A DNA stretch of 64,000 bases from Rhodanobacter sp. AS-Z3 (GTDB lineage Bacteria; Pseudomonadota; Gammaproteobacteria; Xanthomonadales; Rhodanobacteraceae). Below are positions 28,013-39,206 of the stretch, one piece after another (position 1 is the stretch's first letter; every line of letters begins with the position of its first letter). Below the pieces are notes generated by a model. That model had not been told where the DNA came from, ran no database searches, and saw nothing but the letters and a program-made list of their open reading frames with translations. The stretch covers positions 2,379,001-2,443,000 of the forward strand of contig NZ_CP119392.1 in NCBI RefSeq assembly GCF_029224025.1, in the 5' to 3' direction. The translations under genes and the position numbers were made by a program.

Positions 28013-28099
28013 TGGTGCCCGAACCCGGAATCGAACCGGGATACCCGTGAGGGTGAGGGATTTTAAGTCCCTTGCGTCTACCAGTTTCGCCATTCGGGC
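28013..28099 (-). tRNA. tRNA-Leu (UAA anticodon)
   Basis: On the minus strand the 87-base sequence folds as a class II tRNA: acceptor GCCCGAA / TTCGGGC, genomically encoded CCA end (28013-28015), anticodon loop CTTAAAA with TAA, a long variable arm, and T-loop TTCGATT. The anticodon and long variable arm identify leucine. Confidence 0.95.
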
Positions 28100-35024: not shown

Positions 35025-36778
35025 GCGTGTTGCAACTGCAACGGCGCGAACGTCGGGCTGAGCCGCACGGTTGGCCGGCTTCGGTGCACCCGGTCTTGCA
35101 GCAGGTGTATGCCGCGCGGGGCGTGCTGGAACCTGCGCAGGCTGAACACAGGTTGGCCCGGATGCTGTCGCCGGAACTGCTTGGTGGGATGAGTCAGGCG
35201 GTCGACCTGCTGGCTGAAGCCATCCGTGATGACTGGTCCATCCTGATCGCCGGCGACTACGACTGTGACGGCGCCACCGGCACCGCGGTGGCCGTGCGCG
35301 GTCTGCGTCTGCTCGGTGCGCGGCAGGTTGGTTATGCGATTCCCAATCGTTTCACCCACGGCTACGGTCTGAGCGCCACCTTCGTGGCTTCGCTGCAGCC
35401 GACACCGCAACTCATCGTCACCGTGGACAACGGCGTAGCCAGTGTGGCCGGCGTGGCGGCAGCGAAGGCCCGTGGTATCCGCGTCATCGTCACTGATCAT
35501 CATTTGCCCGGCGAACAGCTGCCGGACTGCGATGCCATGGTCAATCCGAATCTGGCCGGCGATCCGTTTCCGAGCAAGATGCTGGCCGGCGTCGGCGTGA
35601 TGTTCTACTTGCTGTTGAGCCTGCGTGCGCGGCTTTACCCTGGTGATCATCCTGATCGCGAAGATCAGCAGGGGACCATCCCCGGCCGTGCTGTTCAAAA
35701 GCGCCAACGCCCCGATCTTTCGAGCGTGCTCGACCTGGTTGCGCTGGGCACGGTGGCCGATCTGGTGCCGCTGGATTTCAACAACCGCGTGCTGGTCGAA
35801 GCTGGCCTGCAGCGTATGCGCGGCGGGCGCGCCTGTGCCGGCATCACCGCGCTGGTCGAAGCTGGCAAGCGCAGTCTGGCGACGTTGTGCGCCAGTGATC
35901 TGGGCTTTGCCGTGGGTCCCCGCTTGAACGCTGCCGGGCGTCTGGAAGACATGCGGCTTGGGGTGGAATGCCTGCTCACCGATGACGCGGCGCAGGCACG
36001 CCATTACGCCGCGCAGCTCGATGCAATCAACCGTGAGCGACGCGATCTTCAAGCCTCCATGGTGGCCGAAGCGGAGCAAATGGTCGCCGGCCTCTCCGAC
36101 ATCGACGCGATCGGCGTGGCCTTGTTCGAACCGTCGTGGCATGCAGGCGTGGTGGGTCTGGTCGCTTCTAAACTTAAAGAGCGGCTGCATCGCCCGGTGA
36201 TTGCCTTTGCTCCGGCCAGTGCAGACGATGGTGATAATTTGCGTGGGTCTGCCCGTTCGATTCCGGGCTTCCACATCCGTGATGCGCTGGCCGCCATCGA
36301 TGCACGCCAGCCCGGCCTGATCGAGCGCTTCGGCGGCCATGCGATGGCGGCCGGGCTGAGCCTGAAGGCTGTGGACTACCCGCGGTTTGCTGCTGCCTTC
36401 GATGCCGTGGCACGCGAATTGATCGAGCCAGAACGTTTGCAAGCGGTGTTGCATACCGACGGCGAGCTGCCGCCCGGCGCCGCTACGCTGGATCTTGCCC
36501 GGCAATTGCGTCGGGCCGGGCCGTGGGGCCAGGCCTTCCCCGAACCGTTGTTCGATAACGTGTTCGACTGCGCCAGCTGGAAGGTGATGGGTGAATGCCA
36601 TCTGCGCCTGCAATTGCGCGATCCGCGCGATGGCGCCGTGCATGACGCGGTGATGTTCAACGCCTATCACGGCCAACCGCCGCCGTCGCGCCTGCGTGCC
36701 GCCTACGAGCTGGTGATCAACGACTGGCAAGGCCGCGAAAGCCCGCGCCTGCTGCTGCGGCATATCGAAGCGGCTTGA
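35003..36778 (+). CDS. recJ: Single-stranded-DNA-specific exonuclease RecJ
   Basis: Degrades ssDNA 5' to 3' in recombination and mismatch repair. A 591-residue DHH/DHHA1 protein: GDYDCDGATGT near 86, VTVDNGVAS, the DHH motif VTDHHLPGEQLPDCDAMVNPN near 165, and DHHA1 IERFGGHAMAAGLSL near 440. Length fits the family (about 570). The GTG at 35003 overlaps the preceding gene; the TTG a few codons later is also possible, so the exact start is uncertain. Confidence 0.93.
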   Translation: MAQGGPLSVLQLQRRERRAEPHGWPASVHPVLQQVYAARGVLEPAQAEHRLARMLSPELLGGMSQAVDLLAEAIRDDWSILIAGDYDCDGATGTAVAVRGLRLLGARQVGYAIPNRFTHGYGLSATFVASLQPTPQLIVTVDNGVASVAGVAAAKARGIRVIVTDHHLPGEQLPDCDAMVNPNLAGDPFPSKMLAGVGVMFYLLLSLRARLYPGDHPDREDQQGTIPGRAVQKRQRPDLSSVLDLVALGTVADLVPLDFNNRVLVEAGLQRMRGGRACAGITALVEAGKRSLATLCASDLGFAVGPRLNAAGRLEDMRLGVECLLTDDAAQARHYAAQLDAINRERRDLQASMVAEAEQMVAGLSDIDAIGVALFEPSWHAGVVGLVASKLKERLHRPVIAFAPASADDGDNLRGSARSIPGFHIRDALAAIDARQPGLIERFGGHAMAAGLSLKAVDYPRFAAAFDAVARELIEPERLQAVLHTDGELPPGAATLDLARQLRRAGPWGQAFPEPLFDNVFDCASWKVMGECHLRLQLRDPRDGAVHDAVMFNAYHGQPPPSRLRAAYELVINDWQGRESPRLLLRHIEAA

Positions 36779-36846
36779 ACCTTTCTTGCGCGTTGTTCAC
36801 GTGATGGGGTGCATGCTGGCGCCTCCACCCTCCACGGAGAACAACC

Positions 36847-37221
36847 ATGATTTCACAAATCGAAGGTCTGCCTGCCGGCACGCTGGGTTTTCGTGCCCAT
36901 GGTCAGGTCACCGCGGATGACTACGAAAGCATCATCGTGCCGGACGTGGAAGCGGCGTTTGCGCTCAATCGCAAATTGCGCTTGCTGTATGTCACCGCGG
37001 AGGACTTCACCGGCTTCGACCCGGGCGCCATGTGGAACGACGCGAAGCTGGGTGCGCGGCATTTCAGTGGTTGGGATCGCGTGGCTCTGGTCACCGACGT
37101 GCCATGGCTGCGAGTGACTGCTGCCACGTTCAGCTTTGCCATACCGGCACAAGTCCGGCTATTCCATGCCGCTGAAATCGAACAGGCTACTGCCTGGATC
37201 ACCGAAGCTTCAGACGGCTAA
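36847..37221 (+). CDS. SpoIIAA/STAS-like domain protein
   Basis: A 124-residue protein with the SpoIIAA-like (DUF3478) pattern: GLPAGTLGFRAHGQVTADDYESIIVPDVE, RLLYVTAEDFTGFDPGAMWNDAKLGARHF, WDRVALVTDVPWLR, RLFHAAEIEQATAWI. Such proteins are soluble and probably bind lipid-like or signalling partners; the substrate is unknown. It is a single gene between recJ and the asn leader region. Confidence 0.78.
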   Translation: MISQIEGLPAGTLGFRAHGQVTADDYESIIVPDVEAAFALNRKLRLLYVTAEDFTGFDPGAMWNDAKLGARHFSGWDRVALVTDVPWLRVTAATFSFAIPAQVRLFHAAEIEQATAWITEASDG

Positions 37222-37283
37222 ATGGCCGATTGATCCGTTTTTCGGCACTTGCCAAGCTGCTGAGAATCTGTTCCAGTAAGTCC

Positions 37284-37406
37284 ATGCATTCCGCCACCGC
37301 CCGTTTCGTCAACCTCATTGCGCTCTCCGCGCAGGGTTTCGTGCTGGCCAGCAACAACAATAATCGCGCGAACAATAACGCCAACCGTTGGCGGGCCCTC
37401 GCGTAG
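37284..37406 (+). CDS. Asparagine-rich leader peptide of asnB (40 aa)
   Basis: A 40-codon frame ATG to TAG, too short for normal gene callers. It contains nine Asn codons, eight of them in the last 17 residues: a run of four (37353-37364), a run of three (37371-37379) and one more (37383-37385). The next gene is asparagine synthetase and a strong terminator lies between them. This is the arrangement of amino-acid leader peptides, in which ribosome stalling at scarce aminoacyl-tRNA decides read-through. The ribosome-binding site is weak. Confidence 0.82.
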   Translation: MHSATARFVNLIALSAQGFVLASNNNNRANNNANRWRALA

Positions 37407-37468
37407 CTTCAAGTCTCCACGAAAAATACGCGAAGAAGGCCCGCCTAGTGCGGGCCTTCTTCGTTTTT
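37390..37468 (+). promoter_or_regulatory. asnB transcription attenuator (antiterminator/terminator)
   Basis: Terminator: perfect 14-bp stem CGAAGAAGGCCCGC (37431-37444) with GCGGGCCTTCTTCG (37450-37463), then five T. Alternative pairing: GGCGGGCC (37390-37397), located right after the Asn codon cluster, is perfectly complementary to GGCCCGCC (37438-37445) in the terminator's left arm. A ribosome stalled at the Asn codons would leave 37390-37397 free to block the terminator. One that reaches the stop at 37404 would cover it and allow termination. The model is inferred from sequence. Confidence 0.8.
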
Positions 37469-37538
37469 GCCTGTGGGCATGGATGCCCACTTTTGCCCCG
37501 CGATCAGGGATCGGTCGCACAAACAAAAGGCCTTCACC

Positions 37539-39206
37539 ATGTGCTCGATATTCGGAATGTTCGACCTGCAACCCGGTGATGATCTGGCGGCGTTGCGCCG
37601 ACAGGCGCTGGAACTGTCGCAGCGCCAGCGCCATCGCGGGCCGGACTGGAGTGGTGTTTTCGTCGACGCCGGTGTGATTCTGGTGCACGAGCGCCTGGCG
37701 ATTGTCGACCCGGCCAGCGGTGCCCAGCCGCTGCGTTCGCGTGATGGCGCGCTGGCGCTGGCGGTCAACGGCGAGATCTACAACCACCGCGAGCTGCGTG
37801 CGGCCAGTGACTATGACTTCACCACCGGGTCGGACTGCGAGGTGATCAACGCGCTCTATCGGGAGCATGGCAGTGATTTCCTCGGCAAACTCAACGGCAT
37901 CTTCGCGTTCGCGCTGTGGGATGGTGTGGCGCAGCGTTATTTGATCGCCCGCGATCCGATGGGCGTGTGCCCGCTGTATTGGGGGCATGACGTGCAGGGA
38001 CGTCTTTGCGTGGCGTCGGAGATGAAGGCGCTGGTTGGCGTATGTGCCGACGTGGCGCCGTTTCCGCCGGGGCATGTTTACGACAGCGCGAGCGGCGAAT
38101 TGCAGCTTTACTACAGCAAACCCTGGCGTGATTACGAAGCGACGCGTGGCCAGGAAGTCAGTGCAACCGCGTTGCGCGAGGCCTTCGAGCAGGCGGTGCA
38201 TCGTCAGTTGATGACCGATGTGCCGTACGGCGTGTTGTTGTCCGGCGGGCTGGATTCTTCACTGGTCGCGGCTTGCGCGGCGCAGTTTGCACGTGAGCGG
38301 GTCGAGGACGACGATCGCAGCGAAGCGTGGTGGCCGCGGCTGCATTCGTTCGCGGTCGGGCTGGACGGCTCGCCCGATCTGGCTGCGGCGCAGATCGCTG
38401 CCGATGCGCTGGGTACCGTGCATCACGGTTTCATCTACACGTTCTGGGAAGGGCTGGATGCCTTGCCCGAAGTGATCCGGCACATCGAAACCTACGACGT
38501 CACCACGATTCGCGCCGCTACGCCGATGTATTTGCTGGCGCGGCGGATCAAGGCGATGGGCGTGAAGATGGTGTTGTCTGGCGAGGGTTCGGACGAGATC
38601 TTCGGGGGTTACCTGTACTTCCACAAGGCACCGTCGGCCGAGGCCTTTCACGAAGAAACCGTGCGCAAGCTTGATGCGCTGCACAGCTACGATTGCCTGC
38701 GCGCGAACAAGGCGATGATGGCCTGGGGAGTGGAGGCGCGCGTGCCGTTCCTCGATCTGGAATTCATCGACGTGGCGATGGGACTGGATGCTGTACGGAA
38801 GATGGCCGGGCAGGGCAAGATCGAGAAGGCGGTATTGCGCGAGGCGTTCGAAGGCGCGTTGCCGAATGAAATTCTGTGGCGGCAGAAGGAGCAGTTCAGC
38901 GACGGCGTCGGTTACGGCTGGATCGACGGGCTCAAGGCGCATGCGGAACAACAGGTCAGTGACCGCGAGTTCGCGGCGGCTGCGGCTCGTTTCCCGTTCA
39001 ACACGCCGGCAACCAAGGAAGCCTATTTCTACCGCTGCATCTTCGAGCAACATTTTCCGGGTGAAGCCTGTGCAGCCACGGTGCCTGGCGGCAAGTCGAT
39101 CGCCTGCTCCTCGCCAGCGGCGCTGGCGTGGGACCCGGCCTTTGCCAGTGCGGCTGATCCGTCCGGGCGTGCGGTGAAGGGCGTGCACCAGCAGGCGTTG
39201 GCCTGA
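37539..39206 (+). CDS. asnB: Asparagine synthetase B (glutamine-hydrolysing)
   Basis: Makes asparagine from aspartate, ATP and glutamine. 555 residues, the normal length of AsnB. The N-terminal glutaminase starts MCSIFGMF with the catalytic Cys2; RHRGPDWSGVF and NGEIYNHREL follow. The synthetase domain has the PP-loop LLSGGLDSSLVAA near 229 and VLSGEGSDEIFGGYLYF near 340. The ATG at 37539 is chosen because Cys must follow Met. The gene is preceded by a probable Asn-leader attenuator. Confidence 0.96.
   Translation: MCSIFGMFDLQPGDDLAALRRQALELSQRQRHRGPDWSGVFVDAGVILVHERLAIVDPASGAQPLRSRDGALALAVNGEIYNHRELRAASDYDFTTGSDCEVINALYREHGSDFLGKLNGIFAFALWDGVAQRYLIARDPMGVCPLYWGHDVQGRLCVASEMKALVGVCADVAPFPPGHVYDSASGELQLYYSKPWRDYEATRGQEVSATALREAFEQAVHRQLMTDVPYGVLLSGGLDSSLVAACAAQFARERVEDDDRSEAWWPRLHSFAVGLDGSPDLAAAQIAADALGTVHHGFIYTFWEGLDALPEVIRHIETYDVTTIRAATPMYLLARRIKAMGVKMVLSGEGSDEIFGGYLYFHKAPSAEAFHEETVRKLDALHSYDCLRANKAMMAWGVEARVPFLDLEFIDVAMGLDAVRKMAGQGKIEKAVLREAFEGALPNEILWRQKEQFSDGVGYGWIDGLKAHAEQQVSDREFAAAAARFPFNTPATKEAYFYRCIFEQHFPGEACAATVPGGKSIACSSPAALAWDPAFASAADPSGRAVKGVHQQALA

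Follow-up and report, generated by a model that had tools for sequence, protein, structure and literature searches.

Leader-peptide attenuators in Escherichia coli and Salmonella are described for His, Leu, Thr, Ilv, Phe and Trp in the consulted part of one account (PMC1183508). The locus reported here shares with them a short frame rich in codons for the product, alternative antiterminator and terminator pairings, and a biosynthetic gene directly downstream. It differs from them in the amino acid, asparagine, and in the gene, asnB, as well as in a frame that probably has neither a 5' leader nor a Shine-Dalgarno site. A further difference is that the tested members of a second family have, on average, no 1:2 hairpin beyond synonymous controls. 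Candidate attenuators of Actinobacteria (trp, ilvB, cys, leuS) are, as here, leader frames defined by comparative genomics, several of them with terminators, and a word search of the main text of that study, the part consulted, returned no asparagine case (PMC1262725). A leaderless leader frame has a precedent in trpL of Sinorhizobium meliloti, according to the consulted part of that report (PMC7298713). The trpL/rnTrpL system concerns Trp, not Asn, belongs to an alphaproteobacterium and has a 14-residue peptide, and both its terminated RNA and its peptide act in trans. In the open literature searched, a scope outside which most subscription papers lie, we found no asparagine leader peptide, and as far as this search extends an asparagine leader-peptide attenuator is not in print.

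The window analysed here is a stretch of 64,000 nucleotides from Rhodanobacter sp. AS-Z3. Judged from sequence comparison, it is very likely that asnB in this window is controlled by a ribosome-mediated transcription attenuator that senses the supply of Asn-tRNA, and the best reading of the locus is an Asn-specific, leaderless variant of the His/Leu/Trp attenuators. If this is true, asparagine would join the short list of amino acids with leader-peptide-controlled synthesis. A preliminary description had already interpreted the locus as an attenuator, and that interpretation is supported by the kept Asn codons, antiterminator and terminator and by a coordinated change of the pairing arms between families.

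The asnB leader in the window

Positions 37284-37406 of the forward strand form an open frame of 40 codons, from the ATG at 37284 to the TAG at 37404-37406, that is probably the 5' end of the mRNA. Its 40-residue product, MHSATARFVNLIALSAQGFVLASNNNNRANNNANRWRALA, contains nine Asn, eight of which fall in the last 17 residues. The Asn codons of the control region (37353..37385, +), in the arrangement NNNN-RA-NNN-A-N, are kept in relatives and are the presumed site of ribosome stalling. None of the 953 short frames in the window outside the leader has five or more Asn. The protein collection holds 27 matches to the leader, itself included, and all names shown are 'hypothetical protein'.

Downstream of the frame lies an intrinsic terminator hairpin, C:D (37430..37464, +), with 15 pairs around the loop CTAGT. 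Its stem, which covaries, consists of 14 Watson-Crick pairs (37431-37444 with 37450-37463) and one G-U pair, and is followed by TTTTT, the T-run at 37464..37468 (+). Arm C (37427..37445, +), made up of TACGCG and GGCCCGCC, can form either the terminator with D or an antiterminator with arm B (37390..37405, +), which comprises GGCGGGCC and CGCGTA and is supported by the predicted fold and by pairing in the alignment. GGCGGGCC at 37390-37397 is the exact complement of GGCCCGCC at 37438-37445, and a second antiterminator helix of six pairs is possible between CGCGTA at 37400-37405 and TACGCG at 37427-37432. Both B:C helices are present in the predicted fold of a nascent RNA that ends before the right arm of the terminator, and in the fold of the complete RNA the terminator takes their place; the RNA from 37340 to 37470 folds 4.1 standard deviations below shuffles (z -4.1). 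The preliminary description had proposed the 40-codon frame with its nine Asn, the perfect 14-bp stem with T-run, and the complementarity of 37390-37397 with 37438-37445. All of these are borne out at the coordinates it gave, and the six further pairs come in addition to those it listed.

The presumed controlled gene, asnB (37539..39206, +), encodes a glutamine-hydrolysing asparagine synthase B (NCBIfam PRK09431.1, 866.4 bits where the cut-off is 499) with 94% identity to Rhodanobacter proteins. The genome of the window also encodes a more distant AsnB-like paralogue, and no asnA was found in it.

T-boxes regulate asparagine genes in other phyla, and control of asnB by RNA without a ribosome, through uncharged tRNA in a T-box-like manner or through an Asn-binding riboswitch, was weighed on that ground. 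Against it, no T-box or other regulatory Rfam family (Rfam 15) scores at the gathering level in the window or in seven relatives, and the conserved feature is a run of Asn codons, both AAC and AAT, rather than an aptamer. A cmscan search of 36500-38000 at E up to 1 returned no T-box match. We therefore regard ribosome-free control as very improbable. At the leader, only sub-threshold matches were seen, to Thr_leader (RF00506; 33.1 bits on the minus strand and 25.1 bits, against a gathering score of 55) and to Trp_leader (RF00513; 22.9 bits against 41). The sole Rfam match at gathering level in the window is a tRNA-Leu (TAA) at 28013-28099 (-), which is also the only tRNA found there.

Conservation and distribution of the leader

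We examined a named set of 80 AsnB loci from Rhodanobacter, Dyella, Luteibacter, Frateuria, Dokdonella, Fulvimonas and MAGs. An Asn-containing frame and, a short distance past its end, a terminator precede asnB at 76 of the 80 loci, namely 75 with at least three Asn near the stop codon and L056, whose leader lies further upstream. The four counted as having no leader are L073, with none in its 250 upstream bases, and L026, L031 and L066, each represented by at most 123 upstream bases. Scored over the last 26 residues before the stop, 70 of 76 leaders (75 loci and the window) have at least six Asn and 57 have at least seven; a few have only three or four. Both AAC and AAT are used. In these relatives the N-terminal half of the leader is poorly conserved, and the Asn codons and the end that encodes the antiterminator are kept.

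Background frequencies come from the 80 named loci with their leader zones excluded, a total of 584,917 bases in which frames of 8-80 codons were counted on both strands. At least 4, 5, 6 and 7 Asn in 20 codons were present in 15, 3, 1 and 0 of these 6262 short frames, respectively. Since the single frame with at least six is the displaced leader of L056, the true background at that threshold is 0 of 6261. A tandem array with a 47-base unit in 5.3 copies lies between the terminator and asnB at L056:2621-2873; units similar to it occur in the same interval in L182 (G145), and other repeated units in L083 (G002). Because of such arrays, the leader may sit several hundred bases before the gene.

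A survey of the order covered 150 genomes, of which 97 have asnB above the cut-off, and read 500 upstream bases, so that leaders further off, as in L056, would escape it. The leader was found in 51 of the 53 asnB genomes of families f1 (22/23), f2 (26/27) and f3 (3/3), and in 2 of 44 elsewhere (f8, 2/23; f10, 0/19; f5, 0/1; f6, 0/1). By its presence in f1-f3 and near absence elsewhere, the leader thus marks three families; we take f1 to be Rhodanobacteraceae, and f2 appears to be Xanthomonadaceae. Fifty of the 51 leaders have at least four Asn in 20 codons and one, in G125, has three, and within 500 upstream bases of asnB in G086 and G107 no leader was found. Many f1 survey genomes appear identical to named loci, so the two f1 counts are not independent. 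With a rule relaxed to catch stems that absorb their T-run, the script found a terminator in 50 of the 51, and the one it missed, in G140, shows a hairpin followed by a short T-run.

The exceptions in f8 are G073, which is without a terminator, and G098 (L124), where an Asn/Thr-rich frame, MFAIYNTINTTNNRLLRSAGSF, is followed by a hairpin with a T-run; the latter may be a separate, independent case. In G051, also of f8, there is no Asn-rich frame in 325 upstream bases. A class-wide survey of 223 genomes returned this type of asnB at the strict cut-off in only four, three of them already covered, and the fourth, G293 (L201), has no Asn-rich frame in 400 upstream bases.

These counts bear on a plainer explanation, in which an ordinary intergenic terminator ends an upstream transcript and the Asn-rich frame is there by chance. 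The gene order gives it some footing, as the leader is preceded on its strand by recJ and a gene that has no NCBIfam match, and the terminator stem also reads as terminator-like on the opposite strand. It would nevertheless have to account for the co-occurrence of frame and terminator before asnB (51 of 53 with the frame, 50 of these with a scripted terminator) against the empty background at six or more Asn, for a frame 3' end that tracks the terminator arm in sequence, and for a conserved promoter-like element that directly precedes the frame. We consider this explanation most unlikely.

The supply of charged tRNA-Asn in these bacteria is relevant to what an attenuator before asnB would sense. 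AsnRS is encoded in 73 of 76 genomes tested, out of the 97 with asnB, including 32 of 32 in f1-f3, and GatB was found in none of the 76. Charged tRNA-Asn in the tested genomes therefore derives from free Asn, of which AsnB is likely the main source. The three genomes without AsnRS (G095, G108 and G118, in families f10 and f8) have no leader. We also considered that genomes with no leader before asnB might charge tRNA-Asn by transamidation, and rejected this on the same counts, which hold with or without a leader.

Promoter-like element and the start of the leader

Upstream of the leader, in the window (37249-37283) and in the named loci, we observed a promoter-like element with fixed spacing. 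Across 76 aligned regions it takes the form of TTGC, about 17 bases, a block resembling TCTAGT, about six bases, and ATG. In the window, the -35-like element is TTGCCA (37249..37254, +), with TTGY conserved at this distance, and the -10-like element is TCCAGT (37272..37277, +), 17 bases past the -35 and ending exactly six bases before the leader ATG. At the -35 place, TTGY is present in all 76 Rhodanobacteraceae leaders (75 loci and the window), compared with 27 of 760 control ATGs, and it also precedes an in-frame ATG in 29 of 29 second- and third-family (f2/f3) leaders. TNNRKT ends 5-8 bases before the ATG in 69 of 76 f1 leaders, compared with 20 of 760 controls, and fits only 14 of the 29 f2/f3 leaders; both patterns were derived from the same sequences on which they were scored. 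A generic promoter scan of the window reports no site at this element, because its -10 is far from consensus.

Shine-Dalgarno cores were found in 0 of 76 leaders, 56 of 76 asnB starts and 61 of 760 controls. Median pairing with the anti-Shine-Dalgarno sequence is -2.7 for the leaders, -5.9 for asnB and -4.1 at random places. Transcription from a sigma-70 promoter starts some 6-7 bases past the -10 hexamer. With the -10-like element at its observed position, this spacing would place the start point at the A of the leader ATG. The promoter-like element ending six bases before the ATG, together with the missing Shine-Dalgarno core, suggests that the leader frame of asnB in the window is probably leaderless. 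This refines the preliminary description, whose attenuator interpretation stands and in which a leaderless start did not figure. A leaderless attenuator would be useful for asking how far the timing of attenuation depends on ribosome loading and polymerase pausing.

Many f2 leaders (L103, L145, L149-L153 and others) carry a conserved, operator-like GTTGC..GCAAC.GTTGCG just upstream of the -35 or overlapping it.

Paired arms, modelled ribosome positions and the proposed mechanism

Pairing was scored in an alignment, A1, of 75 Rhodanobacteraceae sequences (74 loci and the window). Of 76 sequences, 75 passed; L043, whose leader peptide is the same as that of L037, was left out, and some rows were lengthened slightly at the 3' end. 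Pairing in the terminator covers 92.1% of cells, and the terminator covaries: both sides have changed in 76 cells, where the shuffled mean is 23.2 (0 of 500 shuffles). The antiterminator B:C pairs in 92.2% of cells, and in at most 41.0% when slid. Covariation of B:C inside Rhodanobacteraceae is no better than in shuffles (176 of 500 for cells paired, 167 of 500 for the score), as the antiterminator core is nearly invariant, and arm C is constrained to fit both B and D. The argument for the antiterminator consequently rests on a comparison across families.

Between families the arms differ. In f1 the terminator reads GGCCCGC..GCGGGCC and the leader typically ends in GGCGGGCC or GGTGGGCC, and in many f2 members the terminator is CCCGCATC..GATGCGGG with a leader end of CGATGCGGG that encodes RPMR in most of these. 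The conserved C-terminus of the peptide, RWRA-type or RPMR-type, thus varies by family along with the terminator arm. When each of 20 genera is represented by a single genome, the mean for native B:C duplexes is -21.3 kcal/mol, compared with -17.8 kcal/mol when re-paired, and none of 20,000 random re-pairings was as stable as the native set, a count uncorrected for relatedness among the 20 genera. Against synonymous recodings of the last 12 codons, B:C has a mean z of -1.85 over 29 genomes, and in seven of the 29 (G125, G077, G121, G151, G026, G150 and G171) it is matched by at least 38% of recodings. In G151, C has ggcctgc, B has the matching GCAGGCC, and D retains a G-U pair. On this comparison, antiterminator and terminator arm have changed together between families, a natural swap of B and C that makes the attenuation model directly testable. 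The preliminary description had named a lack of Asn-codon enrichment and of conserved pairing in close relatives as what would speak against it; since enrichment and pairing are both kept, along with the terminator, that lack was not encountered.

The same family differences weigh on the possibility that the frame encodes a small, Asn-rich functional protein whose mRNA ends at the terminator, with asnB transcribed from its own promoter. Several Rhodanobacter records list the frame as a hypothetical protein, and its C-terminal residues are conserved. However, what is kept is the Asn codons and the antiterminator-coding end rather than the N-terminal half, and the C-terminus and the terminator arm vary jointly from family to family. 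The promoter scan gave no site between the terminator and asnB, a weak point since it passes over the element upstream of the leader as well. A functional small protein is accordingly a highly improbable account of the frame.

The small 1:2 hairpin, a putative protector or pause structure at 37379..37393 (+), has six pairs (37379-37384 with 37388-37393). In fixed columns it pairs in 65.6% of cells, where shuffles give 61.1% and none of 500 comes as high, but slid versions are close behind, at 59.1% and 54.6%, with an ordinary covariation score (66 of 500). Because the register of the stem, by eye, differs between Rhodanobacter- and Dyella-type leaders, synonymous recoding was used. Of 200 synonymous versions of the 37379-37393 stretch of the window, 192 fold less well than the native one, which is not general: five other Rhodanobacter-/Dyella-type genomes (G063, G081, G096, G145 and G070) are similar, with 10 to 23 of 200 versions as good, and the remaining f1 and f2 genomes tested mostly give no support (mean z of -0.82 in f1 and -0.05 in f2). 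The pause hairpin of the preliminary description is thus supported for Rhodanobacter- and Dyella-type leaders, and in the second family it does no better, on average, than synonymous controls. By these measures the 1:2 hairpin appears to be a lineage-specific part of the leader, not a defining one.

We modelled ribosome positions on 50 leaders, with a ribosome that masks 15 bases, counted from the start of the A-site codon. With a stall on Asn codons from -22 to -9, B can pair C, and predicted pairing of the C core ranges from 0.43 to 0.99. At -7, a position found in many f1 leaders, B:C largely disappears (0.00 to 0.16 for the majority), the exceptions being G135 (0.34) and G170 and G150 (0.64 in both). 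In the leader RNA of the window, arm B can still pair when the modelled ribosome sits at codons -17 to -9, and can no longer do so when it sits at -7. A ribosome at the stop codon hides B by construction of the model. With no ribosome, B:C is predicted in most nascent RNAs (mean 0.68), with the lowest values in g23 (six of seven at 0.00 to 0.04). Equilibrium prediction for the full-length RNA puts less than half of it in the terminator form for 11 of 26 f2 leaders, so that termination there would hinge on kinetics or timing and on translation.

Under the attenuator reading, transcription would begin at or beside the leader ATG and a ribosome would load on the unleadered 5' end. With ample Asn-tRNA, the ribosome would reach the stop codon and cover B, C:D would form, and RNA polymerase would stop at the T-run. 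When Asn-tRNA is scarce, the ribosome would wait at Asn codons that mostly lie 27 to 66 bases before the stop; B would then be free to pair with C once C is made, no terminator would form, and asnB would be transcribed. In Rhodanobacter- and Dyella-type leaders, the 1:2 hairpin, which overlaps B, may tip the RNA towards termination in the absence of a ribosome.

A broader joint reading, which we put forward tentatively and hold to be somewhat less probable than its negation, is that an Asn-specific attenuator working from a leaderless mRNA descends from the ancestor of the three related families. As parts of that same tentative reading, the ribosome would meet the leader as the 5' end emerges; the f2 RNA, for which a protector hairpin lacks support on average, would be 'on' by default, so that termination would need finished translation of the leader; and terminator and antiterminator would have been replaced together as the Asn codons stayed. 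Like rnTrpL, the terminated transcript could have a role in trans as well. A default-'on' f2 RNA, if true, would mean that asnB responds to translation initiation as well as to Asn-tRNA.

Codon usage in the leaders has features of its own. Third-position bias is seen in Rhodanobacter-type leaders (21 sequences) and not in Dyella-type leaders (19). AAT makes up 44% of Asn codons in the leaders (75 named loci and the window), compared with 14% in asnB, and the leaders perhaps favour AAT because the rarer codon is read more slowly, which is speculation on our part.
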